Shown in pieces: positions 1 to 61,444 of a stretch of DNA of 64,000 nucleotides; positions within the stretch are counted from its first letter, which is position 1, and each line of letters begins with the position of its first letter. The translations under genes were made by a program, and so were the position numbers. The stretch comes from Apus apus (lineage: Eukaryota > Chordata > Aves > Apodiformes > Apodidae). The notes below the pieces were generated by a model. The model did not search any database, had not been told where the DNA came from, and saw only the letters and a list, made by a program, of their open reading frames with translations. The stretch lies in NCBI RefSeq assembly GCF_020740795.1, contig NC_067301.1, positions 2,232,001-2,296,000 on the forward strand, in the 5' to 3' direction.

Positions 1-3000
1 CTGGGGTGACTGAGAGGGAGTTTATGGAAAGCAAACCTCTCAAAAAATGGCAATAATTGCAGTATGGTTAGACTATAATTACAGGAACTATTATAATAGC
101 AACGTGTGTTGTTCTTTTTTAGAAGTGGCTGTGTGCTGCTCCTCTTTTTTTGGAGATTCATCTAAGTCAAACTTGAGTCATGTAGGATCCAAATTATTTC
201 CTCTTGGCTGTGTGGCAGGAGAAGAATCTCTTTAGGTGCAGGCTGTCAGGACAGGACTGTAGATTAGTTCTGGAGCACTTCTGGATCAGTTGTTCTTTGA
301 CAAAGGATCCCTCTGGTCCATAAGCCTGCCCAAATGCAAGGGAGATCTGTAGGTACCTGCTCAGGTGAGGAGCTTGGAGATGTCCTGGTGTCTGCTGAGG
401 ATGCACATGTCTTCTCTGCAGGATCTCAAGATGGTGATGCGCATTCAAGTGAGAAGCAACAAGGAGAGCCAAGCTCCTGGATTGTCACTCTCTGATCCAA
501 ACCAACCACCTGCAGCAGAAAAACCTCAGATGCCAGACAACCACCACCCCCCAGGGAGCAGACAGGTGCAAATGCAGAGGTTGGTGAGACCAAATTCCTT
601 CCTGCTCTCCATGTTCAGCCTCAAAGGAACCATACAGGCTGGTCCCTGGCCTCTCTCATGTTTATTGTGGTTTCTATCATAGAATCATCATCATTTCTGC
701 TTGAAAGATGGTTGAAGAAAGTGTTAGTTCCTGGCCCCACTGTCATCTAGTTCTTGTAACTGACTTGCTGCCAGGTCTGTCTCGACTGAAGCAGACTGGT
801 GGTGTTGTGTGATTGAACTCCCAGCCTGCTGTGAGTGCTGTGCTGGAAAAAAAACCCACCAGAGGCTCTTGTGTGACTGGTGTGTGCTCTGCACCTGCCT
901 CTGCTCTTGAACTGTGGGCTGAAGTGTGTGTTGTGGGGAGAGAAAGAGGAGGTACTGCTGAGTGAGTCAGCATGGATTTCCTACTAGCCAGAGGAGATGG
1001 TGGGAAGGGAGTCTGGACTGACTGCAAGAAATCTCCTCCCTTCCAGTGATGGTGACTTAAATACCCTGTTTTCTTTAGCAGACTAAAGGAATTCTGCATG
1101 ATGGAAGCAAACCATCTGCAGCAGGAAGGGTGGCTAAGAATTCTTTCAGTCTCTATAAATAAGAGGCATGAAGTTGTACATTAGAGCTGCAACTTGCTAA
1201 TTTTTTCCACTAATTAATCAGTAATCTGTCAAGATCTGCAGGAGCAACCAGACATTGAAGATCTGAAGTTGTCTCATCTCCAAGGTTATATGTAATCTGG
1301 AAGCAAGGGCTTACAAGAAAAGACTGGGAATCTTCTGAGCTTAGCTGAGACCTTGGTATTAAAACTCCCTGACACTTGGGCCTGTTGCTCTATCAGACAT
1401 CCCCAGCACAATGTGTTCTCCAGCCCCAGTCTGGGGGAAAGCAGGAGAGGAGAGCTCTGGGGAGGGGAGTCCCTTGGAAGGGTCAGAGGTTCAGAGAACA
1501 GGATAGAATTCCTACAGCATGGTACTTGTGTTGCTGTTGTACCTGGGAGCCTAGTCAGGGACCTGGATCCTGTTGTATTGGATGCTGCAGAGGCACAGGA
1601 GGCAGTGTTTGCTGCCTCAGAGCACTCACAGAAAACCAGTTGGTTTTGCAAAAGGAAGAAAATGTCTTTCTGAGGCTGCAATTCATCAAAGTCTGGCCAT
1701 AAGCCAAAAACTGACTCTGAAAATAGTGCTTCCTCATTTAACTTATTTATCCTTTGTGTGTGTCCAGGTCATATCTGCTCAGTTTACTGGAGCAAACAAG
1801 ATTTAATTTCTGTTTTATCTGTAGAGGAGGCTTCTGGATTTCATTCTAAATTCAGCCTGATCCTACCTGTTCTTATCTGCCATTTTTGGTTGTTCCCTTA
1901 ACCCAGGGTCTCCCCAGGTCAGACACTGTGCTTTGCCTGTTCCTTTAAAGTCCTGCCCATCCTGCTTTGACAGGTAACATCTGCATGGACACACAGAGGA
2001 TATTCTGCCCATCTCAGGGAGGGAGTTGTGTGGGTGTAACTGGAGGTGAGGGTCGACGTGGTGATGGCAGAATGGCCTTTCCTCAGCTCCGTAGAGTGGG
2101 CACCATCAGAAAAGGCAAATATTGGTTTTGTTTGGCAAATGTGTTCTGCCAGGACAGAGCTCATGGTATGCTTGGTGTGCTTTTCTTTTACTTGATCTAT
2201 CATCAAGGAATTACTGAGCAGCTGGAGGCTGTTATTTACCCTGCAGGAGGTGTGTGATAAGGAGAGCAGAAACCAGCTTTCTCCGGAAGGTCTCGATGCC
2301 AAGAACAACATCAGACCTCAGCAGAGCACAGAAGGGGCCATAGAGCCAGTGCCAAGGGCTCAGCCTTGGGTGGCTGAGACCAGCAGATTCCAGAGGAGCT
2401 CTGGATGGCCAAATGTGCATGTTGATGGTTTTATAATGGGGGAAATCTGAGCTGAAGGCTGGGTTATGATTTTTTTTTTTTCCTGAAAGTTCTGTGTGGT
2501 GGCAGTATGCTGGCTTGGGAAAGCTCTAAGTGTCTATTTAGAATTGGAGTTTATTGCTCCATGGATATGTTTTGGTATCACATGATTAATATTAAAGCAG
2601 TTCTGCAATTCATTTTGTTCTAAAGCATAACTTATTTTGTATTTATGTGGTGTATTAGATGTTCATTTTCAAGCAGATATCACAGCAACTAATGCAATCT
2701 GCTAGTTTTGCCAAAAGAAGTTAAATTGGGACAAACTTCTGCATGTGTTGGAGTTTTTTTCCTCTGCTTGCCATTTCTGAAATAGCATTTTGCAATCTCT
2801 CTTGACATACTGAGATGGGGGGGATTCTGTTTTGTTTCCTACCCCTGTTGCAGCTGGAAAGACATAGTTAACAAAGTGGATGCCCAGAGGGATGAGGAAC
2901 AAGTGCACAGTTACCCAAAGAGCCTTCATCTGGATCCCAAGCCTGGGCAAGAGATGCAGAAAGGCAGCCCCCAGCCAGCAGCAGGTCAGAAGAGAGGGGA

Positions 3001-6000
3001 AGAGCATCCAAGAACTGCTCAGGAGGGTGAGAAGGAAAGGACAGATGAGGAGGAACTGGAAATGGGTATGTTTCCCTAATCCTGTGCTGGACAGGACTAA
3101 TTTATTGCTGATCAAGGTGGGGAGGGAGGAAGTGCTTGTGTATGAGAGTGTTAGTGTTCAAGGAAACCTTACAACTCTTGGAAAACTCTGATGCTTTTAT
3201 TGTCCTTGGTCAAATGAAAAGCCTGGACCATTTTCCATTCTTGTTCCCTGTTGTCCTGCAACCTCACACATTTTCAAAGTAGTGGACTCACAATCTGTGT
3301 AAGTGAAGTCAATTCTCCTTTCTTTATTATGGGAGTGAGAAGGAAAATGTCCTCTTTTTTTTTTTTGTTTGCAAGACTTGATCTCAGTCTCCCATAGGAA
3401 TTGATTTAATCTTTTTAGAAGTGGGTCTTCTAACTTAGGGAAGAAAATTTCCCAACTCTCCTTAGGAGGCTAAAAGCAAATAAATGAAGGGGCAGCTACT
3501 TGGACTGGACAGTCAGCTACCAGGGCAGCTACAGCTGTTTTGAAGCCTGGTAAGTAACTGCAGTTGGGCATTGGAGCTCTTGGAACAGGGTGTTAGAATT
3601 CCTCAGCCTTCTGCTCTGGGTCTCTTCAGACCCCCGTGCACTGACTCACTCAGCTAATGACAGGCTGGGAGAAACATTTGCCTGGGTGTAAAGTTCATCA
3701 TCTCACCATGAAACCAACTAATGAATAATCCATTAGATGATGCATCTGAGGGCAGAATCTTTGCTTCCTTTTCCAGTGTGAACACTTTATAAACAGATTT
3801 CTCTGCTTCAAACAGCCTCTGCCCTGGATTTCTCTTGCACACTTGGAAAAGAACCTGCAAGACCTGGAAGTTAGCAAGTCAAAAAAAGGGACACTGAAAT
3901 GTAGATATGAGTAATTCTAATCCTGTGTGTTGCTAGGCTGAGGTAGAATGACTAAGTTAGGTGGCTTTTCATGTAGTAATTTTTTACTGTTGTCTTGGAT
4001 GCAGTAAGGCAGGGGAGCCAGGAGCTGAATCCTGGGAAGTTCTCATCTGAAATGCTGACTTGCATCCTCTTTAACATGGTTAAGATGGTCTCAGCCTGGT
4101 TTCTTCAGAGTAGATTTTGGCTCTGGATTTGGAACAGGGGAAGGATGTCATGGGGCAGGGATTAAAGCCTGTGGCTGAACCTTGGATCAAAAGGCTGAAA
4201 TCCCCCAAGATGGGGCATTTCTTCCCGGCCTCTTGGCTCAGTTCACTCTGTGCAGGTGAAGTTCTTCCTCCCAGAACAGCAGCATTTGGGTCACTCTGCT
4301 GGTGTGCACTGAGGGGCTGGTCTGGAGAGGAGGTTTGGTGTGCCTGTGCTGGCCCACAGCCACCTTTGGCTGCTATTTCATGTTTTGCTGACCTGATTTT
4401 CAGCAAGTTCCCTCAGAGGAACTGAACTAATTGGTTCACATCAAAGTGAATTCTACCCTGAGAAGAAAAGGCCTCGTGGCAGGTATAGGGGAGTGTGAGG
4501 ACCAGCAGCTCTTGACCTCTGTGTCCTAATTGGGATGAACAGCCACAGCACTGACTGGGCTGCCCTGGTGCTGGGAATGCTGGTATCTCACAGGGTCCTG
4601 AGGTGTCCCATTCTGGCAGCTGGAGGAGAATGGTTCTGCTCTGCCCTCTGAGTGGGCCTGAGGAGGTATCCCTCTGGAAGCACACATGGAGCCTGCAGGC
4701 AGGTTGAGACAAATCCCTGTGGGACATGGATTTAATTCAGCAAGAATCCTAACAGGTGAGACTGGATTTTGAGAGGTTGCACTGGTAACTGTCCCCTTTC
4801 CTTGCAGATGCAGGAGTGATTGAGAGAGAGGAGAACCTGCATTCTCAGAAGGAGCCTGTTGCCCAGGAGCCAATGGTAAGTGTCACCTGGGTGCAACCCC
4901 AGCTCTGAACAAGATTCCAGCTGTCCCACTTACATCCATGCTTTCCCAGAAGTTTGTGTAACATGCAACTCCAGACTCCTTGGTTCTGGAGGGGTCCAGA
5001 GATAACAAAGACTGAGGGGGGGGTGTTGTTTTCAGAACCACTAACATGCTTGAAGAGAGGTGTGGCTTCTTGCTGGTGAAGGCAGCCTCACCTTGGGCTC
5101 TGTCTCCCAAGGGGATGTCCTGCCTGGTATTCACAAGAGGCTTTTTTGTCCAGATGCCAGATGATGCTGCAGATCCTGCCCAGGATCCCAATAACCAAGG
5201 GGAGGATGAGTTTGAGGAAGCTGAGCTGGAGAGACCTGACTTTGAAGAGAAGGTGGGAGGTTTGGAGAAGTTCAAGGAGCCCAGCTTGAAGGAAGAGTCT
5301 AAGGAGAAGCCACTGAAGGTGACTGACCTGAGGGCAACCAGCAGGGTTAGGGTTAGGGTTAGAGAGAGACCCCCAGCTATGAATGGGGTGAGGCAGAGGG
5401 CTTAAGGACTCAGAGGAAAACAAATCATATTCCTGGATGGATCCAGAATCCCACCACAGGGCTATGGAGAAACCTTCAGAGAATCAGTGGGTTGGTCAGT
5501 ACCAGAACTTGTTCTCTCCCTGTCCTCTCTGCTTGCTGAAGGCAGCCCTAGCATTTGCAGCACCTACATGTCTGGAGAGACAAGGAGCAGGAGCTGGCTC
5601 TTGCTGCAGAGGTGCTGTGTCCTTTCAAGCACTTGAGAGACCAAAACCAGAGACAATGCCAAGGGCCTGTGCTGGGGGTCTGGTGAGAGCAGGCACTGCT
5701 GCTCCTGGGAAGGGCAGGCTCCTGGCAGCAGGGACACCACGTGAGGACTCTGCCTCCTCCTTTGCCTGCTTGCAGATGGAATCCATTTCATTTGCAAAGT
5801 GCTTCTTGCTGTCTGAAGCCAGGCCCTGCATCAGGACGATAGTAGCTTGTTTTGATAAGCAGCTGAGTGTTGCTTGTTTTAAAAAGGAGTGGTTTATCTG
5901 TCAGGCTCTAAAATCATGATTAATAGTGAGGTTTAAAAAGATATGTGTGTGTGTGTATATATATATAAAATTCAGGCCAATGAAAGCAAACAAGAAAGAG

Positions 6001-7843
6001 ATCTGGCACCAACAGAGCAACACCTCCTAAAGGTTAGGGAAAATGTGGAAAGAATTAGTGGCATAAATACCTGACTTTCAGATAGGACTGGGCTGTGCTG
6101 CCTGGAGCTCTGCCCTAAGGAACTTCTAGGTTCCCTGCAGCCCTGGGACCTTCCTGCTGCAGGAGAGGCCTCTCTCCCTGGTGGAAGGAACTGGGCAGTT
6201 GCCAATGGCAGGTGGGAAGAGAGACTGGTTGGAGAAAGTACAGATGGAGTTGGGGTGTCCTCATTGTCTCTCCACTGGCCGCTGATCCTTGATCTATAGC
6301 TCAGCCTTCCAGACCTGGGGCTCTAACGCAGGAGAGCTGTATCCCTGGCAGGGAACAGAAGTGGGTTGGGGCACCATCAGCAGTGTCTGACTTCCTGTGT
6401 TTTTCAGGATGCTGACAGACCTGCCAAGCCCAGGGAAGAGCCAGTGGAGGACTACCAAGAAGATCAGGAGCAAGAAATTGTACGACACCAAGGTTCTTCC
6501 TCTTTCCCTCTCTGGTGTGGTTGTTACCTGGGTATGTTGGTAGCCAGGAGCTGAGTGTGACCCAGTGTTTAGATGGGAGCCCCCACTTCAGTTTTGGCTC
6601 TGCCTGCTCAGTGAGGTGGGTCTCCAGAACAAACCTGGAGCCCACCTACCTCTGCTCCCTCTTCTTGTTCAAGCTTTCAGAGCACCCTTTACACTGTCTC
6701 CCCTCCTCATTTCTTTCTGCATCCATCTGCAGCAGTTGAGCTGTGAGATGTTCACCAAACAGCACCTGGGGGGATTATGAGCTGTGCTGGTGCAGCAAGG
6801 CAAGATCAACAGGTGTTTTTCTAATCATCACCCTGGGGTTTTAATTCCTGTGGTGAGAAATTCATTGAGAGCCCTGCAAGTCACATAAAAGTATGGGTGA
6901 CAGGAGAATGTGACATCTCACTCCTGAGGCAGGAGTGGAGGTGGTGGGTCGTTTGGGCCACAGTTGCCAGGAAGCCACTGCTCCCTTGTGTGGCTGAGAA
7001 CAGGTCCCAGAGCTCCAGGACTCCTGCAGTCAGTGACAGGCTGGCATTCCTCAGGGAGAAAGATTGGAGGCCACCAAAGATCAAGAGCATGAGCTCTAGA
7101 GAGGATCACCCTGGTGCCTCTGGCTCACGTAGATAGAAGTGAAGGATCCTCTTCATCCTCTGTTTGCCCTTTGTGAGTGGCTCCTGCTGGCTTGTTCTGC
7201 AGTTTGGAGGTGGTTGCTGAGGAGCTGAGGGTTTGGGCTGCCTGCTGGGAATGCAGGGGTGGGGAAATCAGGGGTGGGCAGAGCCAAGGTGATGGCAGGA
7301 GCTATCCTTGCCCTGGGTGTAGAACCTGGTGTGTACCCTGGGTAGCTGGACCTCTGAGTGCCCATGGAGGCTGTGCTGGCTGCTGCACATCATGGGGGGA
7401 TTTGTTACATGGTTTTAAGTGTGGTGGGTGTAGGAGATGTCCTGCTCATGTAGCAGTGGCAACAGGCTGTGATGTCAAAATGGCTTTGTAATGCCAGGGT
7501 ATGAAATGTGCTGGAATGAACAGGCTGATCATGGCAACACAGGCTTCTCACCTCTGTGTCTTGGCTTAGTGCCTTGCAAATGACTCCCAAAGGTCCCTGG
7601 CAGAGATGGATTCTTCCCTGTTTTCCTGAGTTTCCCAAGCTGGGCTGGCATGCTGAAAGAGCTATAGTGGTTAGGGTCTCCTTTTCCAGGCCTTGCTGAT
7701 TTTTTCCTTCCTGGCTGTTCCTCTGCACCCAGGAGGATCATGGAGGTGAGGTGGATGACAATGATGACCTGGAACTTGTCCAAGACCAGAAGGATCATGG
7801 AGGCATACAGGGAGCTGGGGGCAAGAAGGATGACTACTACTGA
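1..7843 (+). CDS. Golgi integral membrane protein 4-like gene (GOLIM4/GPP130 family), 3' part only
   Basis: This is a multi-exon gene whose 5' exons (signal anchor and most of the coiled coil) lie left of the window. The exons I can place are 422-565, 2247-2369 (tentative), 2854-3065, 4808-4875, 5154-5318, 6408-6492 and 7733-7843. Together they encode an acidic, Gln/Glu/Pro-rich tail. The strongest family signal is DPNNQGEDEFEEAE in exon 5154-5318, a segment I recall almost unchanged near the C-terminus of vertebrate GOLIM4. GOLIM4 is a type II Golgi membrane protein that cycles through endosomes and is sent to lysosomes when manganese rises; that role is known for the family and only inferred here. 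Junction 3065/4808 joins in frame, as do 4875/5154 and 5318/6408. Two junctions do not join cleanly (see findings). No in-frame stop is seen inside the exons, so it is more likely a live gene than a pseudogene. The sequence differs enough from GOLIM4 that a paralog is likelier than GOLIM4 itself. Confidence 0.72.
422..565 (+). CDS. GOLIM4-like exon: end of coiled coil and start of tail
   Basis: The exon sits between a tctctgcag acceptor and a GACAG|gtgcaa donor. It is 48 codons with both ends in phase 0. The translation begins DLKMVMRI, which resembles the QLKDTLNRI segment that closes the GOLIM4 coiled coil, then continues into a Pro/Gln-rich stretch (SDPNQPPAAEKPQ). The donor is not the strongest consensus. 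The assignment rests on position, phase and weak similarity. Confidence 0.5.
2247..2369 (+). CDS. Possible GOLIM4-like exon (tail region)
   Basis: The exon follows a ttaccctgcag acceptor and opens in phase 0, matching the end of exon 422-565. The frame stays open to 2450. It reads EVCDKESRNQLSPEG, compared with the EVQEVSRNNDVW region I recall in GOLIM4. The donor is uncertain: gt at 2370 (CCTTGG|gtggct) ends in phase 0, whereas the next good acceptor at 2853 needs phase 2. The exon, its end, or both could be wrong. Confidence 0.4.
2854..3065 (+). CDS. GOLIM4-like exon: acidic tail
   Basis: An excellent polypyrimidine tract and acceptor (tacccctgttgcag) precede the exon, and the donor is ATGG|gtatgt. 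Read from the acceptor, the frame is WKDIVNKVDAQRDEEQ and onwards, ending EGEKERTDEEELEM. This is the charged, low-complexity composition of the GOLIM4 tail. It ends in phase 1 and joins exon 4808-4875 precisely, making GAT (Asp) at the junction. A weaker alternative acceptor at 2887 would start the exon in phase 0. Confidence 0.7.
4808..4875 (+). CDS. GOLIM4-like exon: short acidic exon
   Basis: The exon is 68 bases between ctttccttgcag and ATG|gtaagt, a near-perfect donor. With the G carried over from the previous exon it reads DAGVIEREENLHSQKEPV and then AQEPM, ending in phase 0. The clean phase match on both sides is the main support. Confidence 0.78.
5154..5318 (+). CDS. GOLIM4-like exon carrying the family signature
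   Basis: Acceptor cttttttgtccag, phase 0 start. The translation MPDDAADPAQ continues with DPNNQGEDEFEEAE, the segment most diagnostic of the GOLIM4 family, then LERPDFEEK and a Lys/Glu-rich end. Two in-phase donors are possible: AAG|gtgggagg after 5252, or AAG|gtgactg after 5318. The longer form was chosen because the extra 22 residues keep the charged composition. A (TTAGGG)3 tract begins 26 bases past the longer donor. Confidence 0.82.
5344..5362 (+). repeat. Short interstitial telomeric repeat, (TTAGGG)3
   Basis: Three tandem GGGTTA units plus a final G sit in the GOLIM4-like gene, 26 bases after the putative splice donor at 5318. They are followed by an AG run. This is too short to be a telomere relic in itself, but the three units are uninterrupted. 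Confidence 0.9.
5943..5968 (+). repeat. (GT)n(AT)n microsatellite
   Basis: A short GT run followed by AT repeats (TGTGTGTGTATATATATATA) in the GOLIM4-like gene intron. Confidence 0.9.
6408..6492 (+). CDS. GOLIM4-like exon: Glu/Gln-rich tail
   Basis: The exon follows cctgtgtttttcag and reads DADRPAKPREEPVEDYQEDQ and then EQEIVRHQ, close in character to the QQEDNVDEQYQEEAEEE part of GOLIM4. The best donor is CAAG|gttctt, ending in phase 1. An alternative donor at 6480 (ATT|gtacga) would end in phase 0 and so fit the last exon directly. Confidence 0.72.
7733..7843 (+). CDS. GOLIM4-like last coding exon
   Basis: A strong tract (cctggctgttcctctgcacccag) precedes 37 codons that open in phase 0: EDHGGEVDDNDDLELVQDQ, and so on to KKDDYY and TGA at 7841-7843. 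The acidic run fits the C-terminal end of the family. If the previous exon ends in phase 1 at 6492, this frame cannot be reached directly. Either an unseen small exon lies between, or the phase-0 donor at 6480 is used. Confidence 0.65.
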   Translation, partial: EDHGGEVDDNDDLELVQDQKDHGGIQGAGGKKDDYY

Positions 7844-10800
7844 AAGCTGCTGAAGGAAGATGGACTATGCTGGGAATGAGGAGATGGGAACTCCTCCTGG
7901 GAACTGGCTCCTGTGTTCAACACTGCCTGGAACAGACACAGGCAGGAGGAGGTAACTGTCTCTGCAGGCACTGAGCAGGCTGCTTGCAGATGTGCATCAC
8001 ATCTGCATGTGTGGGGCAATTGCTGCCTCTCCAGTCACCAGCATGGAAGTGCTCTCAGACTGTAGGAATGATATCATTCTGCTGCTTCTCTTAGAAGCAC
8101 TTTTTGATTTACTGTGTTCTTCACCCTCTTGTTTTCCCTATCCCCTCCCAAGCTGGAGAGTTTCTTATTTTTTAACACCCTGGTCAGCAGAGTGGAGCCT
8201 GAACTGGTCCCTGGGCTTTTACTTGACTGATGGCTAATACAAAGGAATCTGTCTTCATAAAATATTTTGCTCAGTGGTGTTTCTTTAAAACGTCCTTTTC
8301 CCCCACCAGAGTGAGGTGGAGAGGCAGTTAGCCTGCTTTGTCTGGAGGGATGCAAGGTGAGAGCTAACCATGAGCACCAACAGAAATTACTCTGTGTGTG
8401 TGTCTGTGAACAACTGGGTCCTCTCACTGGTGCAGAGACTCTTCCACTGACTCAAAGCAGAGCCTGTAGAGTTCTCCCTTCCTTGGCTTTGAGCTGGGAC
8501 TGTCCTGCTAGGCTTGAAGCCTCCCCTAATGTTGTGCCTCTTGTCTTGACGTGTCTGCTGCCCCCTGGGCTCCTGGAGATGCGGCTGGCCTGAGCTAAGC
8601 CAGGCTCTTCTGGGCTGGTGGCAGGGATTGCCACAGAAATAGCCAAGCGTGGTGGATGGAGCACTTCATGGCACAGCTGTGGGATATTGTTCTTAATTTG
8701 TGTAGTATTTTGGTGGTGTGGAAGCCCCCAGCGGGACACGAACAGATTCCGAGGAGGGCCAGACTTAAAGTTTTCAGATGGAAGCGGCAGGCTGGGAGCA
8801 GACACCCAGTTCTGTGCATCTGCTGTAACCTTCCTGTTCCTGCTGCAGGCACGGCATCCAGGCAGAGCTGTCCCTGCTCTGCCCTCCTCAGGCCACCAGC
8901 AGAACCGAGCAGAGCAGAACTCAGCCTGCCTCTGCCCCTCGGACCCCGAGGCTCCTCCCTCCCTGACCTCCTGAGAGACACTCAGCTTGTAAGATCTCCA
9001 AAGTGGCTTGAAATGGTTAATGCTCGTTGCTGCTTTGTTTTGCTGCCCTTGCTGTCTGATGCAATACTGCTCAGCCTCCACTGCCTGCTATAAATAGCAC
9101 ATTCAGAACAGATCAGCTGGAGTTGCAGATGAATCCTGATCAAAAATTGGCTGCAGGTCTCAGCTGGGCTGGTGAGATAGGTCTGTTTCACTGGTCAGTG
9201 CAGGATCAACAGCCAACATGTCTGTGACATGAGCTTCAAGTCTTCATGTCCAAGCTGCCCCAGTGAGATCTGCAGCAGTTATTTCTGCTGAATTTCACTC
9301 CTCTTCTGTGCTTCTCTCAGCCTGTGACTGCCCAAGCACGGACATTCAGACCTCACTGGAAGTGAATCAAGTGCTGGAAATAGAACCCCAGTGGGGGTGA
9401 GGCTGTGTCTGACTCAGACTGCAGGAGCTATCTAGATTAGGAGGCAAATCCTCTGCTTTTGCTTGTCTAGGATGAGCAATCCTCAAAGTTATGACTCGGA
9501 GGGAATTGGAGCAACTCAGCCCTAAATGTGAAGCTGCCTGCCAGGAGGATGCTTTAGCAACCATATGTCAGATGGTGCCCTCAGCTGAGAGCTGAGCACC
9601 TCCTCTGCTCTAGGGATCCTCTGCCCTGGCTGCAGCCAGGACTAAAACTGGCAGTGCTGCAGAAATGGCTGGCTGGCTGCTGGGTGCTTGGTGCTGCCTT
9701 GCAAGTTGCCCCCATCTTCATGACTAGTTGACTGTAACAGGAGATGAAACAGGAGACAGACCCAGTGGAGGAGAACTGGAAAAGCAGAAAACCTGTGGTG
9801 CTGGGTCTGTCTGAAGGCCCAGAAAGCAAGATGGGGTGTCTCTGCCTGGGGGTTCACTGCCTAAAGGCAGTAGTAGTGTCTTGCCTGAGTGGTGAACTGT
9901 TGGAGCTAATACAGGAGAGGCCCAGGCTGAGTTTTACAGCAGACTGAGGCACAGAGGAAGGTCTTGGAAAGCAGCTGGATTACTAAGAGAGCAAACAATG
10001 AGACAGAGGATTCACAGTGCTGGCAGGCTGACCAAGCCAAAGCATATGTTTTCACTTGTCTCTTGCATAAATAATTGGTTTTTGCTTAGAGACACAATGC
10101 AAGGCCAAAGGACTCTGGGCAGGGTGAGGTGTAGTTAACCTGCAGTGGTGTTACACATGTTGTCAGGGGTTGCTCTTTATTTTTCTTCGGGCCCTGACAA
10201 TGATGTAGAACAGATTTTTGTAAACAAATCTATTTCCAGGATTCACATGATGGGAAAGTATTAAGTGGTTTGGCCACATCTTTAGCCAGATGATGAGAAT
10301 TAACAGTACATTCTGGCCCCTTACAAGTAAAGGCATGGACAAGGGCAACATATGCCTATCAGTTAGTTAAATGAAACATCTGTTTAATGAAGCCTACTTC
10401 TCTGTAACCCCCTTCTTACCTGGAATCCCATTTAGGATTATTAGGCTCATTTACGTGGCATTTTTAGGGGTTAAAATTTCACAATCTAATAGGAGTTTAG
10501 TGAGAAGTTTTCTCTAAGACATCCAAAATAGTTGGAGGAGAAAAATGCCCCAAACCCATGCATATCCTGTAGGTGTGAACTGTCTGCACATCCCCAAACC
10601 AAGAATGTCCTCTCGTTTCTAATTATAGCTGGGACTTAGAGTAACAGAGGTTTCTAAGGATGGCTGTTGTTCATATTCTGTGTAGTCTGAGTGGGACTGG
10701 CTGTTGTGAAACTTAAGGATTAACTATGAATCTAACCTAGACTGCTGGAGCACAGACCTGCCAGGGAATGAACATCCTTCAGTGCTCATTCCTTCTTTGC

Positions 10801-12579
10801 ACCTTGCAATAATATTTGTCTTTTCACCCCATCTGAGTGCCATTTTACACTTGAGCACCTCTGGAGTGAAACCTGCCAATTTTGCTGAACTCACTGCTGC
10901 TTTGGTGTTAGAGAGGAACAATGTGTGTGGAAAAGATGTCAATATATATGGAAAAGATGAGGTAGGCATAAGTATCACTGACAGGTTGGAGTGTTCTGTA
11001 TCCATACGTCCATGTGCCTGAAGATGTAGAAATCAAAGGAGTGTGTGTGTATCCATGTCTTATTGAAAAGAAGACTGGGTCTTGCAGGACTTGCAGGAGC
11101 CAGAGGTTCAGGACATGAACCCACAGGGAAGAATGATTATATCTTCCAGTTCCTGGTAACTTTGGCAGTCATCCTGGGAAGGACATTTGAGGAGGCTTCC
11201 ACAGCTTCCCAGGAAATGCTGTATCTCTAGTTAGCTTGTCTTTCCCTCTTCTACAACTTCAAATGCATGTATTTGAATTCAGTCCAGAGCTAAGGGATGT
11301 GGCACATGCAATCAGGTGTCTTCTCTGCTGTGCCAGCACTAGATCCTTCTTTCCATTGGATCTCTCAATGGAAGAACTCAACGTGTGTTGCAAATCCTAA
11401 GGAGCACCAGAGGCAGGTGCCAGATCTGATCCCTGAAACAACAGCTCTTGGTGCAATCTGCTTTTAACAGCATGAGAACTGCACAGAGTTTGAGGAGAGA
11501 CAACTGGCTTTGTTTGGCTCCAGCCACCTCCTGAACACCCCCCATGTCTCTCGGGAAGGCTGATGAGATCTTCAGTTTTGCATCCTAGCTGGAATTCCAC
11601 AGGTAAGTTTGCCTCAGCCACCACCAAGTGCCTTCAGCAGCACAGCCCTTCCTTTTGCCCTGGAATAATAACCAAGTGTTTTCCAGGGAGAGCAGCCATC
11701 ACTACAGCTTTAGCATCCTGCTGTTTGCTGGGCCTGTATTCTTCATTGATTCCTCTTGGTATCAAAGGAGGTCTCTAACAGCTTTCTCTAGGCAGGCACA
11801 CACCTCCCCCTCAGCATTGAATTTGCTTAAAAATTAGATGTGGAAATAAGTTCTAATACTTATTAAAGATTTTTTCCTCAAGAAACCATAGACTTTAAAA
11901 AGGCAAGGCTTTCAGACAGGAAAAGGTGTCCTGGTCTGAGGCCATTTTGGTCATGTTGATGTTCAGTGCATCTAGAAAACAAAACTAATTAAACAAGTTC
12001 CACGTTGCTGCAAATCATACTTTGTATGTGTTCATCTTACATCTTCAATGAAGTCCAAGGGGTATGATTTGGGTTTGGTTTTTGTTCAGATTATGAAAGA
12101 AAAACAGGCTTAAAAAAAAAATCTTATTTTTGTTGTATTTTAAACTTTTATAAGACAATAAACACTTTTAAAGAAAACTTGCATAGTAAGCTTGTATTTC
12201 CAAGTAGGTAACACAGGGGAAAACTACACTGATGTGCTTAGGCACGTTTCTGGGGTTTTTAACATGGTAATTGTTCTGCTTTGCAGGTTAAAGATAGACA
12301 AATGCATATGTTGTGCCAGAGAAACTGGAACAGGACACTGTGTAAAATCTGATCAAAACACAAACCAAAAACACCCCACTTTGTTTGTGTGGGATGAAAC
12401 CTGCAATGTAAGGACTTAAAGCAGCTTTTACCAGTTGAAGTATTCAAAGAATCTTCAAGGAGGTATTTGTGTTGCTGTTTCACGCAGAGATCTTTTGTTT
12501 ACACATTGAGCCAAGTTTGCACCTTAGTGTGAATCTTGCAAGGAGGCTCAGGAAGGGGCAGGGTGCAGGGCGGGGGCAC

Positions 12580-12580: not shown

Positions 12581-13917
<1,337 letters not shown>

Positions 13918-17764: not shown

Positions 17765-18090
17765 TCACAGAACCACAGAATGGTGGGGGCTGGAAGGGAG
17801 CTCCGGGGATCATCCAGCCCCCTCCAGAGCAGGATCACCCAGGGCAGGTCACCCAGGAACGTGCCCAGACGGAGCCTGGAAGTCTCCAGAGAAGGAGCAG
17901 GGATGAAGTTTCTCCTCACGTTGAGGCGGAACTTCCCGTCTTCCAGTTTTTGTCCGTTTGCCCCTGGTTCTATCACAGGACGCTGCCGAAAAGAGACTGG
18001 CCCGGCCCTCCTCACACCCACCCTGCCGATACCGAGACCCCCTCTGGGCCTTCCCTTCTCCCAGGCTGAGCAGCCCCGGCTCTGCCTCTG
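17765..18090 (-). mobile_element. CR1 LINE 3'-end copy abutting the SSU72 promoter
   Basis: Starting at CACAGAACCACAGAATGG, the sequence follows the complement of the CR1 3' region: GGAAGGGAGCTCCGGGGATC and CATCCAGCCCCCTCC, a repeat-internal GAAGTTTCTCCTCACGTTGA, and finally CCAGGCTGAGCAGCCCCGGC. The copy is on the - strand. It ends exactly where the GC-box minisatellite of SSU72 begins. A long antisense open frame across it is an artefact. Confidence 0.88.
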
Positions 18091-18520
18091 CCTGGCCCCG
18101 CCCACCCAGGCCATGGCCCCGCCCACCCAGGCCATGGCCCCGCCCACCCAGGCCATGGCCCCGCCCACCCGGGCCTGGCCCCGCCCACCCAGGCCATGGC
18201 CCCGCCCACATCGGCCAGCCCGGTCCCTCCCACATAGGCCCAGGCCCCGCCCACATCGGCCAGCCCGGCCCCGCCCAGCCGGGCATCGACCCCGCCCTCC
18301 CGCCCTGGCCCCGCCCATCCGGGCCTGGCCCCGCCCACACCGGCCAGCCCGGGCCCTCCCACACAGGCCCAGGCCCCGCCCACACTCAACCGCCCGGCCC
18401 CCGCCCAGCCGGGCATCGACCACGCCCACCGGCCCTGGTACCGCCCACCAGGTCCCCGGGCCCGCCCACCCCGGCCCCCCCGGCCCCGCCCCCCCGGCCC
18501 CGCCCCCCGCCTCTCTCCCG
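18090..18520 (+). repeat. GC-box minisatellite in the SSU72 promoter
   Basis: This 430-bp array is built on CCCAGGCCATGGCCCCGCCCA and diverged relatives. It contains 15 exact CCCCGCCC motifs (Sp/KLF-type GC boxes) plus variants (CACGCCC, ACCGCCC, GCCCGCCC). The first part repeats at about 21-22 bp. The second part is a higher-order duplication: GGGCATCGAC recurs at 18281 and 18411, 130 bp apart, with matching flanks. It begins at the edge of the CR1 copy. Confidence 0.92.
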
Positions 18521-18960
18521 CCGCCATTTTGTCGCGGCGCGGCGCGGTGCGGGCGGGAGGTGCGGGCGCCGCGCAGGCCGCAGGGCTCTGCCCGTCCCGC
18601 CATGCCTTCCTCGCCGCTCCGCGTGGCCGTGGTGTGCTCCAGCAACCAGAACCGCAGCATGGAGGCGCACAACATCCTCAGGTAACCGGGGCCTGCCCGA
18701 TTCCCCCGCCTCCCTCCGGCGGCGCGGCCTGGCCCGGCCCCGCGCCTCGCCAGCGCGTCCCAGGCCTTGGCGGCCCGTGCAGGCCGCTCCGGGCCCTGCG
18801 CCCGCCCTGCCCGGCGGCCGGGCTCGCTGGGGCTGCCAGGCCTGCTCCTGCCGGCCCGCGGGCCTGGGGACTTCATCTTGTTTACATCCCGCCTCCTCCG
18901 GGCCCGGCCCGGGCGGGGCTCGCCGCGCTGCCCGCGGCCTGCTCCGGCTGCCGCGCCTCT
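18460..18960 (+). promoter_or_regulatory. SSU72: SSU72 CpG-island core promoter and first-exon region
   Basis: The region is dense in CpG (GTCGCGGCGCGGCGCGGTGC) immediately before the ATG at 18602. GCCGCCATTTTG at 18520 resembles a YY1 motif (GCCATTTTG), common at TATA-less housekeeping starts. No TATA box is seen. The motif position suggests that transcription begins close to 18525-18550. Confidence 0.65.
18602..18681 (+). CDS. SSU72: SSU72 exon 1
   Basis: Encodes residues 1-26 and the first two bases of Ser27, including the catalytic loop Cys12-Arg18. The ATG follows CCCGCC, a fair Kozak context. Donor CTCAG|gtaacc, phase 2. Confidence 0.97.
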
Positions 18961-36900: not shown

Positions 36901-39900
36901 TTCCAGAACTGCAAAGATGTTTTTGATTTGATCCTAACGTGTGAAGAAAGAGTCTATGATCAAGTAGTAGAAGGTAAGGACCTTGAACTGATAAACCAAG
37001 TTAACTTTGAGTGCTTTTTCTTCCCCTTCCCCCTGAAGTCCTTCATAAATCTAGACCCATCTCTGTCTCCTCTGCCTGCTGCTGCTGGGACACCAGCAGG
37101 GACAAGAGCTCACAAGCCATTGATGTAGCCTTGATGTACCAAAGGAGTGATGGGTCGGTAGTTATTTCTGAAAGATGCTGCTGTTGGCAGCTACACAGAA
37201 TGTGTATGTATAGTCATTGTAAGGGCTGGCATAAGGAATTAGCAAGCATTTAGAGGAACTCCAGTGCATGGTTGGTTTCATAATGCTCACGGATCTGGAA
37301 GACTAGCAGTTTGTACGTGCTGAGCATTTTTGCACCCTGGGTTGGTGGAGAAGCAAAAGTCTAAGCTGTCTTCACTTCCCTTTCCCTCTCTGCAGATGAC
37401 TTCTTGTGACCTCCCAAGCAGTTTATCCACCATAAATGTCTCCTGTGCAGGTGGAGAGACTGTTCTGGAGCCTGGTTACCACTGCAGGCATGCTGGGAGT
37501 TTGCCCTTAAATGAGTCAAAGTGAGATGAGCCAGAGGGATCTCAGCTGGGGCTTGGGCTGTGTGAACACAGTGCAGCAAGCTTGGTGTGAAAGTCCTGGG
37601 GCTTCAGCAGGGACTCAGTGAGCTCCTGGCAGAGACCCTGTGTCTGCTGGACATGAGCTTGTGGGAGGTTTAAGGGTTTCTTTTACATTGAAAGACCAGC
37701 CAACTGAATGAGAGTCATACACAGAATTTAAAAGGCCTTCTCAGTCTGCAGTGGTTGTGGCACAGGCATTTGTGTCACGACACGTTTGGGCTTCTGCAAG
37801 CTGAGCAGCTAGTGTTCTGAGTGTTGAAGTGTTTGAATTGTGTTGGGAAGTTCTGAGAGCAGCTGCTCTGGTCCTCGAATGGATCTTCAGCCAGTTCAGC
37901 ATGTCTCGTGGAAAGAAGCTTTCAGGTAGATGTTTTAGGAGAGGATCCTGAGGAAGGGAGAGGAGGAGCAACCTCTTGCTAATTTGAGCATCTCTCTGTC
38001 TTCATGGTAGTGCCCCTCATACTTGACCAGTGAAAGGAAGAAGGTTTGAATGCCAACACAGGACTCTGGGTGTGAAAGCTGAAGTTCTAAAATGGCCTCA
38101 ACAGGTTTGCCAGAATGAAGCTGCAGAAGGGGACTAGGAGAGAGCAACTTGTAGGTTAAAACCTGTAACAGGAAGGTTGTATTAGAGAGGCATAACAATA
38201 ACATGTAGTAGGAGGAGGATCCTTTGTTCTGCCCTCCTCACCCCTTGGTAATGGGAGTAACACATTAACCCTGGGGTTGTCTAATGTGACTTGAGCTCAA
38301 CCTGCAGCTGAACTTTCAGAGGGATGGATGTACAGGGCTTTTTTTAAGAATGGGCAAGTAAAGCTCCAGGTGAGGGAGCCCAAAATCATTCTTGACTTTG
38401 AGGATGTGGATATTTAAATACTGTCAGAGTAAGGTGAGCAGGAACTTTTCTTGACTGGGGCAAATAAACAGTCTAGACTCTGAATTCTTTTTGTTTCCAA
38501 AATCCATCCCTTGTTTTTAAAATAAGAGGGACTGTGGTTTATTAAATAAAGCATTTTCTAAAGACAAGTTTGGAGAAGGCAGAGGTGGACAGTGTCTGTG
38601 TGTTTCTAAAAATCTTACGAATACTGAGTCAAAATCTGCTCCCATTCCACCCAAATTTTTACTCTTATGTGTGTTCTGTTTTCAACTAGATTTAAATTCC
38701 AGGGAGCAGGAGACGTGTCAGCCAGTACATGTGATCAACGTGGACATTCAGGATAACCACGAGGAGGCCACCCTGGGGGCTTTCCTCATCTGTGAGCTCT
38801 GCCAGTGTGTAAGTAGAGATAGGTCCTTGCCTGGAGGTGCCTTGGACCCACCTGACTGCACAGGGTCCCTTAGTGCTCCTTCAAGGTGCTTCATCCTGCA
38901 GAAGTTGTTTAGTCTGTGTCAAGATGTGAAAGCTTCTAAATTCTTGTGTTTGGAGCTGTTGTGCACATGGATGAATTGTAACTTGAGTTCATGGCTTCCC
39001 AACTGGACTCTGTGTGTTCAAAACCAGTGCATGGGTAGTTCCTGAGCCCAGCACACAACCCTTGCACCTGGGGAGCCCATGCTCAGGAAACAGTGTTCAT
39101 GGCAGAATTCGTTTCAAAGGCAGTTGCAGTATGTGGGATTGAAACATCAGAGTTGCCTTCTGGATCATGATGTACTTGAAAAACATCCTGTGTAGGTGTA
39201 TTTCATAGTGCCACCCTGGTGTGTGGATGGTGTGGAAGATAAAGCTGATGCCTTTTGTCATCCACAGTCAGGGGCTCAGCCCTGGAAATAGGACTGAAGG
39301 AAGCTGCACTGGTAACAGTCAATGGAACTGTCAAGAGACCAGAGAAGGATCCTTGTCCTTTTATGGAGTTCACCTATTCCAGTGTGGGAACAGGCAATTT
39401 TTTTTTAAACTCCAGCCTGTGTGATCTATTCTGGTCTTAAATCCTTTCTAGATTCAAAAAGCCTGAGAGGGTTCAAGGAGTTGAAATTCTAGCCATCTGT
39501 TCAGTGTGGTTGTAGCTTTTCTGGAGCTCCTGTTTGTTCCCCTGTGAGGATGGATGTTGCCTCCTCAACAAAGTAGCAGCTAAAGTGCTGGTTCAGTGGG
39601 TTGGAGAAGGAAGGGTAAGCAGATAAACATGGTGTGGGATAGATGGACCCTTGGGAATGCTGGGGAGCTCAGCAGAGCACCCAGTGCTGCACTGGTTGGT
39701 ACAGCTTTAGGTTGCACAGTGAGCCCAAAGCATGGAAAATTAGTAGTTGTATTAACTGCATGGTATCCTTGGAGTCTGGTTGCTTAGTATCTTTTCTCTT
39801 CTAGATACAGCACACAGAGGACATGGAAAACGAAATAGATGAGCTGTTACAGGAATTTGAAGAGAAAAGTGGAAGGACTTTTCTTCATACTGTCTGCTTT

Positions 39901-47960: not shown

Positions 47961-61444
<13,484 letters not shown>

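Follow-up and report, generated by a model that had tools for sequence, protein, structure and literature searches.

A probable second GOLIM4-family gene, seen in its 3' part beside FNDC10, SSU72 and TMEM240 in a bird genome

Human GOLIM4 lies at 3q26, and exons that resemble its 3' end are found at the left edge of a 64-kb stretch of bird DNA (the window, 64,000 nucleotides) in a different chromosomal neighbourhood. The locus raises the question of whether these exons belong to a real gene, whether that gene is a member of the GOLIM4 family, and whether it is the 1p36-side partner of GOLIM4 that an initial annotation had proposed, kept in birds and lost in mammals. The exon chain, the GOLIM4 motif, the similarity that reaches jointly into the next two exons and the FNDC10-SSU72-TMEM240 neighbourhood speak for a real gene, and it is most likely a second GOLIM4-family member.

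Seven candidate exons on the forward strand (422-7843) form one open reading frame that ends in TGA at 7841-7843, and their entry phases are mutually consistent (0-2-1-0-0-0-0), as expected from the earlier description of exons in one orientation with matching phases. The seen exons encode an acidic tail with a computed pI of about 4.5. The 5' part of the gene lies to the left of base 1, beyond the window, and no defensible exon was found between 1 and 421. Splice sites were scored with rough, approximate matrices and ranked as percentiles against all AG or GT sites in the window. On this rough scale, six of the seven acceptors and five of the six donors stood at the 88th percentile or above, and the weak sites were one acceptor (at 5976) and one donor (after 6479, ATT/GTACGA). 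The two donors of the motif exon, after 5252 and after 5318, score equally. The first exon in the window has an alternative donor after 583 (97.1th percentile), whose phase does not match that of the following exon. Frame and phases of the chain stand, but they are set against the two weak splice sites, the ambiguous donor of exon 4 and four exons with no GOLIM4 similarity beyond composition.

Table 1. Features of the window. Acceptor and donor values are percentiles among all AG or GT sites in the window (rough, approximate matrices); the last column gives the shuffles that scored equally high against the human GOLIM4 query when each exon was compared singly.
Feature	Position	Strand	Phase	Encoded residues or evidence	Acceptor	Donor	Shuffles
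Candidate exon, first in window	422..579	+	0 in, 2 out	DLKMVMRIQVRSNKES...QVQMQ	98.5	91.7	810/1000
Candidate exon, acidic/Q-rich	2854..3065	+	2 in, 1 out		98.4	93.9	943/1000
Candidate exon	4808..4875	+	1 in, 0 out		99.5	99.4	407/1000
Motif exon	5154..5252 (alternative donor after 5318)	+	0 in	...DPAQDPNNQGEDEFEEAELERPDFEEK		98.3 (each donor)	0/1000 (5154-5318)
Candidate exon, from spliced alignment	5976..6032	+	0-0	ANESKQERDLAPTEQHLLK	72		238/1000
Candidate exon, from spliced alignment	6408..6479	+	0-0	DADRPAKPREEPVEDYQEDQEQEI	99.2	73.9	111/1000
Terminal exon, stop codon included	7733..7843	+	in frame with chain	EDHGGEVDDNDDLELVQDQKDHGGIQGAGGKKDDYY, then stop	96.4		433/1000
FNDC10 coding region, including stop	13285..13917	+		Pfam PF17742, E=3.8e-71
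SSU72 first coding exon	18602..18681	+		phmmer, first 26 residues against PDB SSU72 chains, best E=1.3e-11
SSU72 later exon, part	38689..38826	+		Pfam PF04722, E=2.1e-14, residues 57-102 of the ORF at 38521
TMEM240, start codon to last stop	48068..61444	+		Pfam PF15207

An exon starting at 2247 was dropped in a by-eye check because no donor was seen in the phase required by the next exon. No AATAAA was found on the forward strand from 7801 to 12156. Between the last two exons, an open stretch at 7055-7099 encodes GERLEATKDQEHEL followed by a stop; it lies behind a weak AG site (75.9th percentile), has no GT before the stop, and may be a terminal exon that was lost or is used alternatively, or may be chance. 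The intron directly 3' of the motif exon contains three exact telomere-type GGGTTA units (5344-5361).

The motif exon encodes DPNNQGEDEFEEAE, 14 residues that are identical to human GOLIM4 from residue 553 onward in the 696-residue working version of the human sequence that served as the query. To our knowledge, GOLM1 and GOLM2/CASC4 are without this motif. This query sequence agrees with the residues printed in PMC12250082 (H67RSRLEK73, R148, K274 and R277) and with K11/R12 as printed in PMC11178546. The DNA pattern of the motif occurred once in the 64 kb, at 5184-5221 on the forward strand, and in none of 100 shuffles of the window, which upholds the initial annotation's description of an acidic tail with this motif.

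When composition correction was turned off, tblastn of GOLIM4 against the window gave a match at 5172-5306 (E=3.8e-6, 51% over 45 columns), with the next match in the window at 0.73 and the best in the reversed window at 0.049. When the correction was on, the motif match was 10 residues long and not significant (E=2.3), and it ranked behind an unrelated match at 1.3 and the reversed window's 0.098. The part of the motif exon after the motif carried no signal by itself (420/1000 shuffles equally high). These values bear on the reading that there is no gene and that the open frames are chance acidic ones, which the corrected tblastn result and the high background scores of acidic low-complexity sequence would favour. 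The 14-residue identity to one protein, GOLIM4, is difficult to reconcile with chance, as are the failure of 1000 shuffles to match the motif exon and the absence of the pattern from the shuffled windows, and we consider a chance origin extremely improbable. Other searches gave no match to the exons: the DPNNQGEDEFEEAE string was not found in a full-text literature search, the motif pattern had 0 matches in viral and prokaryote contig collections, a Pfam scan of 5154-5318 and 422-583 and a PDB search with 5154-5318 had none, and Rfam gave 0 matches at gathering scores.

When the GOLIM4 query was aligned with splicing to 1-7900, the score was 168.4, compared with 47.4-102.9 in the other 15 of the 16 strand and window pieces. 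The borders that this spliced alignment used were 580/2853, 3065, 4808-4875, 5154-5252, 5976-6032 and the start of 6408; a further alignment exon at 4138-4170 was judged spurious-looking and left out of the chain. The reversed GOLIM4 protein scored 116.1. Full shuffles of GOLIM4 had a mean of 111.6 and none of 100 reached 168.4, while local shuffles had a mean of 131.3 (sd 10.8) and 1 of 100 reached it (169.5). The region without the motif exon scored 98.9, with no excess over a shuffle mean of 109.4 (sd 10.0). The spliced score of the whole region is largely composition and is not decisive, and most exons depend on frame and composition, because the score without the motif exon falls below the shuffle mean.

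The per-exon shuffle test found significance in the motif exon only. The three exons before the motif, which correspond to the end of the stem and the Q/E-rich region, matched GOLIM4 no better than most or many of their shuffles, with no specific similarity in 2854-3065. The best placement of exon 422-579 was at GOLIM4 242-280, and its position in the spliced alignment was a different one, starting at residue 339; the best placements of exon 4808-4875 (569-582) and of the terminal exon were out of order, and the terminal exon was outside the reach of the spliced alignment. Exons 5976-6032 and 6408-6479, when joined and compared with GOLIM4 576-640, were equalled by 8 of 5000 shuffles, the segment having been chosen after the single-exon tests had shown where the exons fall. 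Among 127 overlapping 65-residue windows of GOLIM4, the five tied best for the joined exons start at 561-581 and all contain the 576-640 segment. The joined tail was equalled by 28 of 2000 shuffles when the motif exon ran to 5252, and by 429 of 2000, which is not significant, when it ran to 5318; the donor at 5252 is favoured as the better apparent fit to GOLIM4.

At the level of sequence comparison, GOLIM4-specific evidence covers three exons (the motif exon, 5976-6032 and 6408-6479), because the motif exon is significant and the next two are significant jointly only. The other four (422-579, 2854-3065, 4808-4875 and 7733-7843) fit by frame, splice sites and acidity only. The homology of the gene to GOLIM4, as the initial annotation had it, is supported by the motif match and by the joint collinearity of the two exons that follow. 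In the joined alignment about 75 columns after the motif are collinear with the human GOLIM4 (GPP130, GOLPH4) query. The acidic C-terminal tail is common to both: of the last 150 residues, D+E make up 33% in the present gene, if the 5318 donor is used, and 41% in the human query. From the motif to the end there are 102 residues here (with the donor at 5252) versus 144 in the human GOLIM4 query, most of the remaining exons could not be aligned, and the chromosomal neighbourhood is a different one. Counterparts of the GOLIM4 stem, type II anchor and short cytosolic tail with K11/R12 fall outside the window.

The GOLIM4-like gene is followed on the same strand by FNDC10, SSU72 and TMEM240, in that order. 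These are the neighbours that the initial annotation had named, and the Pfam and phmmer matches establish them. We take the same order of the three to be that of human 1p36.33, and on that footing the 1p36.33-type character of the neighbourhood is supported. MIB2 presumably lies next to FNDC10 in human 1p36.33, on the side away from SSU72 and TMEM240; none was seen in the window, whose left end falls inside the GOLIM4-like gene. Against PF15207, the TMEM240 ORF at 47963-48436 gave E=1e-27 and its first residues gave 2e-05; the later exons of this gene were placed by eye from the ORF list. Tandem repeats were observed just upstream of FNDC10 (a perfect 9-base repeat with 6.9 copies, 13102-13163), just upstream of the SSU72 start codon (a GC-rich minisatellite with units of about 21-24, 45 and 130 bases, 18090-18491) and within the TMEM240 span (a 16-base minisatellite with 22 copies and 92% matches, 53500-53849). 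Paired CR1-type tail repeats were sought in the window as a mark of bird DNA and none was found.

Whether this neighbourhood makes the gene an ohnolog of GOLIM4 depends on how the two regions are related. Some of the families ARHGEF16/26, CHD3/4/5 and MFN are, we presume, on 1p36. Families such as these define a 2R paralogon that contains the GOLIM4 region in the account given by PMC9664204, which did not count GOLIM4 among its defining families and whose authors were looking at duplicates of the TRPV7/8 region. In the same account, SERPINI and GOLIM4 are close together throughout vertebrates, sauropsids (duck) included, with one uncharacterised gene between them where TRPV7 and TRPV8 have been lost (PMC9664204). 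This source supports a distinct GOLIM4 locus in birds, with duck as its bird. It is highly improbable that the species has no GOLIM4 but this one and that it moved to the side of FNDC10: a second locus is beyond what the window alone can show, but the conserved place of GOLIM4 near SERPINI in sauropsids (PMC9664204) and the '4-like' ending of the chicken gene name both run counter to such a move.

A single GOLIM4 copy is reported for gar and reedfish (PMC9664204), which speaks against a 2R ohnolog, unless the second copy was lost or overlooked. The same observation favours a real GOLIM4 paralogue made after 2R, for instance in a tetrapod or sauropsid ancestor, placed beside FNDC10 and then fast-evolving; the divergence beyond detection outside the three exons would fit age or fast change alike. 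Such a paralogue would have had to be inserted at just the kind of region that 2R phylogenies pair with the GOLIM4 region (PMC9664204, taking some of its families to lie on 1p36), a coincidence that leads us to regard a later origin as possible but rather unlikely. The best explanation is plausibly that the gene and GOLIM4 are partners left by the genome duplications of early vertebrates, with this gene on the 1p36 side. The proposal of a 1p36-side partner is thus favoured in part, by the 1p36.33-type neighbours and the published paralogon, and is weakened in part by the single copies of gar and reedfish. Literature searches for GOLIM4 as an ohnolog, for FNDC10/MIB2/SSU72 in chicken, and for PRDM16/MECOM ohnologs and 1p36 found no paper.

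A probable orthologue of the window's gene is chicken LOC419409. We take chicken chromosome 21 to be the 1p36-syntenic chromosome, chromosome 9 to carry MME and LAMP3 on the side of GOLIM4, and chromosomes 20 and 27 to carry the genes that flank LOC419409 in probe order. The gene is annotated as 'Golgi integral membrane protein 4-like' in PMC6428269, where its probe ID (15468540; gene number 419409) sorts after that of CHRNA4 (15467262) and before those of a feather keratin (15480612) and ACE (15480996). The list has no further gene in this interval, and MME and LAMP3 have the IDs 15550074 and 15546981. The probe numbers of that source seem to run by chromosome, judged from those rows whose genes have a known chicken place. 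Indirectly, this number order fits chromosome 21 for LOC419409 and not chromosome 9. LOC419409 (UniProt E1BU50) and the window's gene are alike in name and in place by probe and gene number, and their probable orthology is drawn from name and place.

LOC419409 is reported to be 5.4-fold higher in the magnum of laying versus non-laying hens (PMC8088581), higher in crossbreed uterus than in that of Yaoshan chicken (log2 1.95, PMC12027243) and lower in the proximal than in the distal ductus arteriosus (ratio 0.84, PMC6428269). It is also listed, as E1BU50, in a vesicle proteome from chicken tracheal cells, where the ratios after two treatments were 25 and 17 (PMC8780788), and it appears among selection-signature genes (PMC8230197). 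If LOC419409 is the orthologue, the gene is probably not new, its chicken counterpart being already annotated and expressed, and the claim that it was kept in birds holds on that same condition, with the chicken gene named, expressed and in a proteome.

The chicken data also bear on the reading that the locus is a decaying copy, the motif exon being old coding sequence in a gene that is shedding exons in this species. The weak donor after 6479, the weak acceptor before 5976, the lack of specific GOLIM4 similarity in four of the seven exons and the open stretch at 7055-7099, with its weak acceptor and no GT before the stop, could all be seen as signs of decay. Set against these, seven of seven exons are open and in one frame, and the chicken gene, if orthologous, is transcribed (PMC12027243) and in a proteome (PMC8780788), so that we hold decay to be very unlikely. 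On balance, the exons probably form the 3' end of a second, functional gene of the GOLIM4 family, whose chicken orthologue is probably LOC419409 and which is most likely the 1p36-side 2R partner of GOLIM4.

What such a gene might do is suggested by GOLIM4. This protein is described as a scaffold of the Golgi that promotes secretion and keeps manganese in balance; its intraluminal domain binds ATP2C1, which requires stem exon 7, to drive secretion, and excess manganese that it binds sends it to lysosomes (PMC11178546). It cycles between Golgi and endosomes, with AP-5 and retromer helping its retrieval (PMC5806898), its tail binds GOLPH3 and its level drops without GOLPH3 and GOLPH3L (PMC8421267), and PC7 and Furin are able to shed it (PMC12250082). 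By homology, the unseen 5' exons would supply a short tail on the cytosolic side, an anchor in the membrane and a luminal stem, and the seen exons an acidic luminal tail that is presumably disordered. Like GOLIM4, the protein may shuttle between the Golgi and endosomes and be shed in part, and it may retain secretory machinery at the trans-Golgi; its acidic tail might bind calcium or manganese, or gather cargo in the lumen. Because the cytosolic tail, the anchor, exon 7 and the first cleavage site are outside the window, a manganese response or Golgi-endosome trafficking shared with GOLIM4, as the initial annotation had offered, would be carried over from GOLIM4 itself. GOLM1 and GOLM2/CASC4 are also described as Golgi proteins with GOLPH3-binding tails (PMC8421267), retrieval of GOLM1 is helped by AP-5 (PMC5806898), and PC7/Furin shed CASC4, which is of type II (PMC12250082).

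To judge from its regulation in the laying-hen magnum and in the uterus, LOC419409 may serve tissues that secrete heavily. A more specific scenario, which we put forward as doubtful, is that a GOLIM4 ohnolog kept in birds, perhaps in other sauropsids, and lost in mammals serves as an oviduct secretion scaffold, with a tail that handles calcium- or manganese-rich egg-white and shell cargo. If birds do hold a second, old copy, studies of chicken GOLIM4 would need to weigh both genes, and the pair could show a former division of duties that one mammalian gene now performs. Work on egg white and eggshell, in which the LOC419409 symbol is found just in gene lists and tables, would then gain a candidate with a mechanism.
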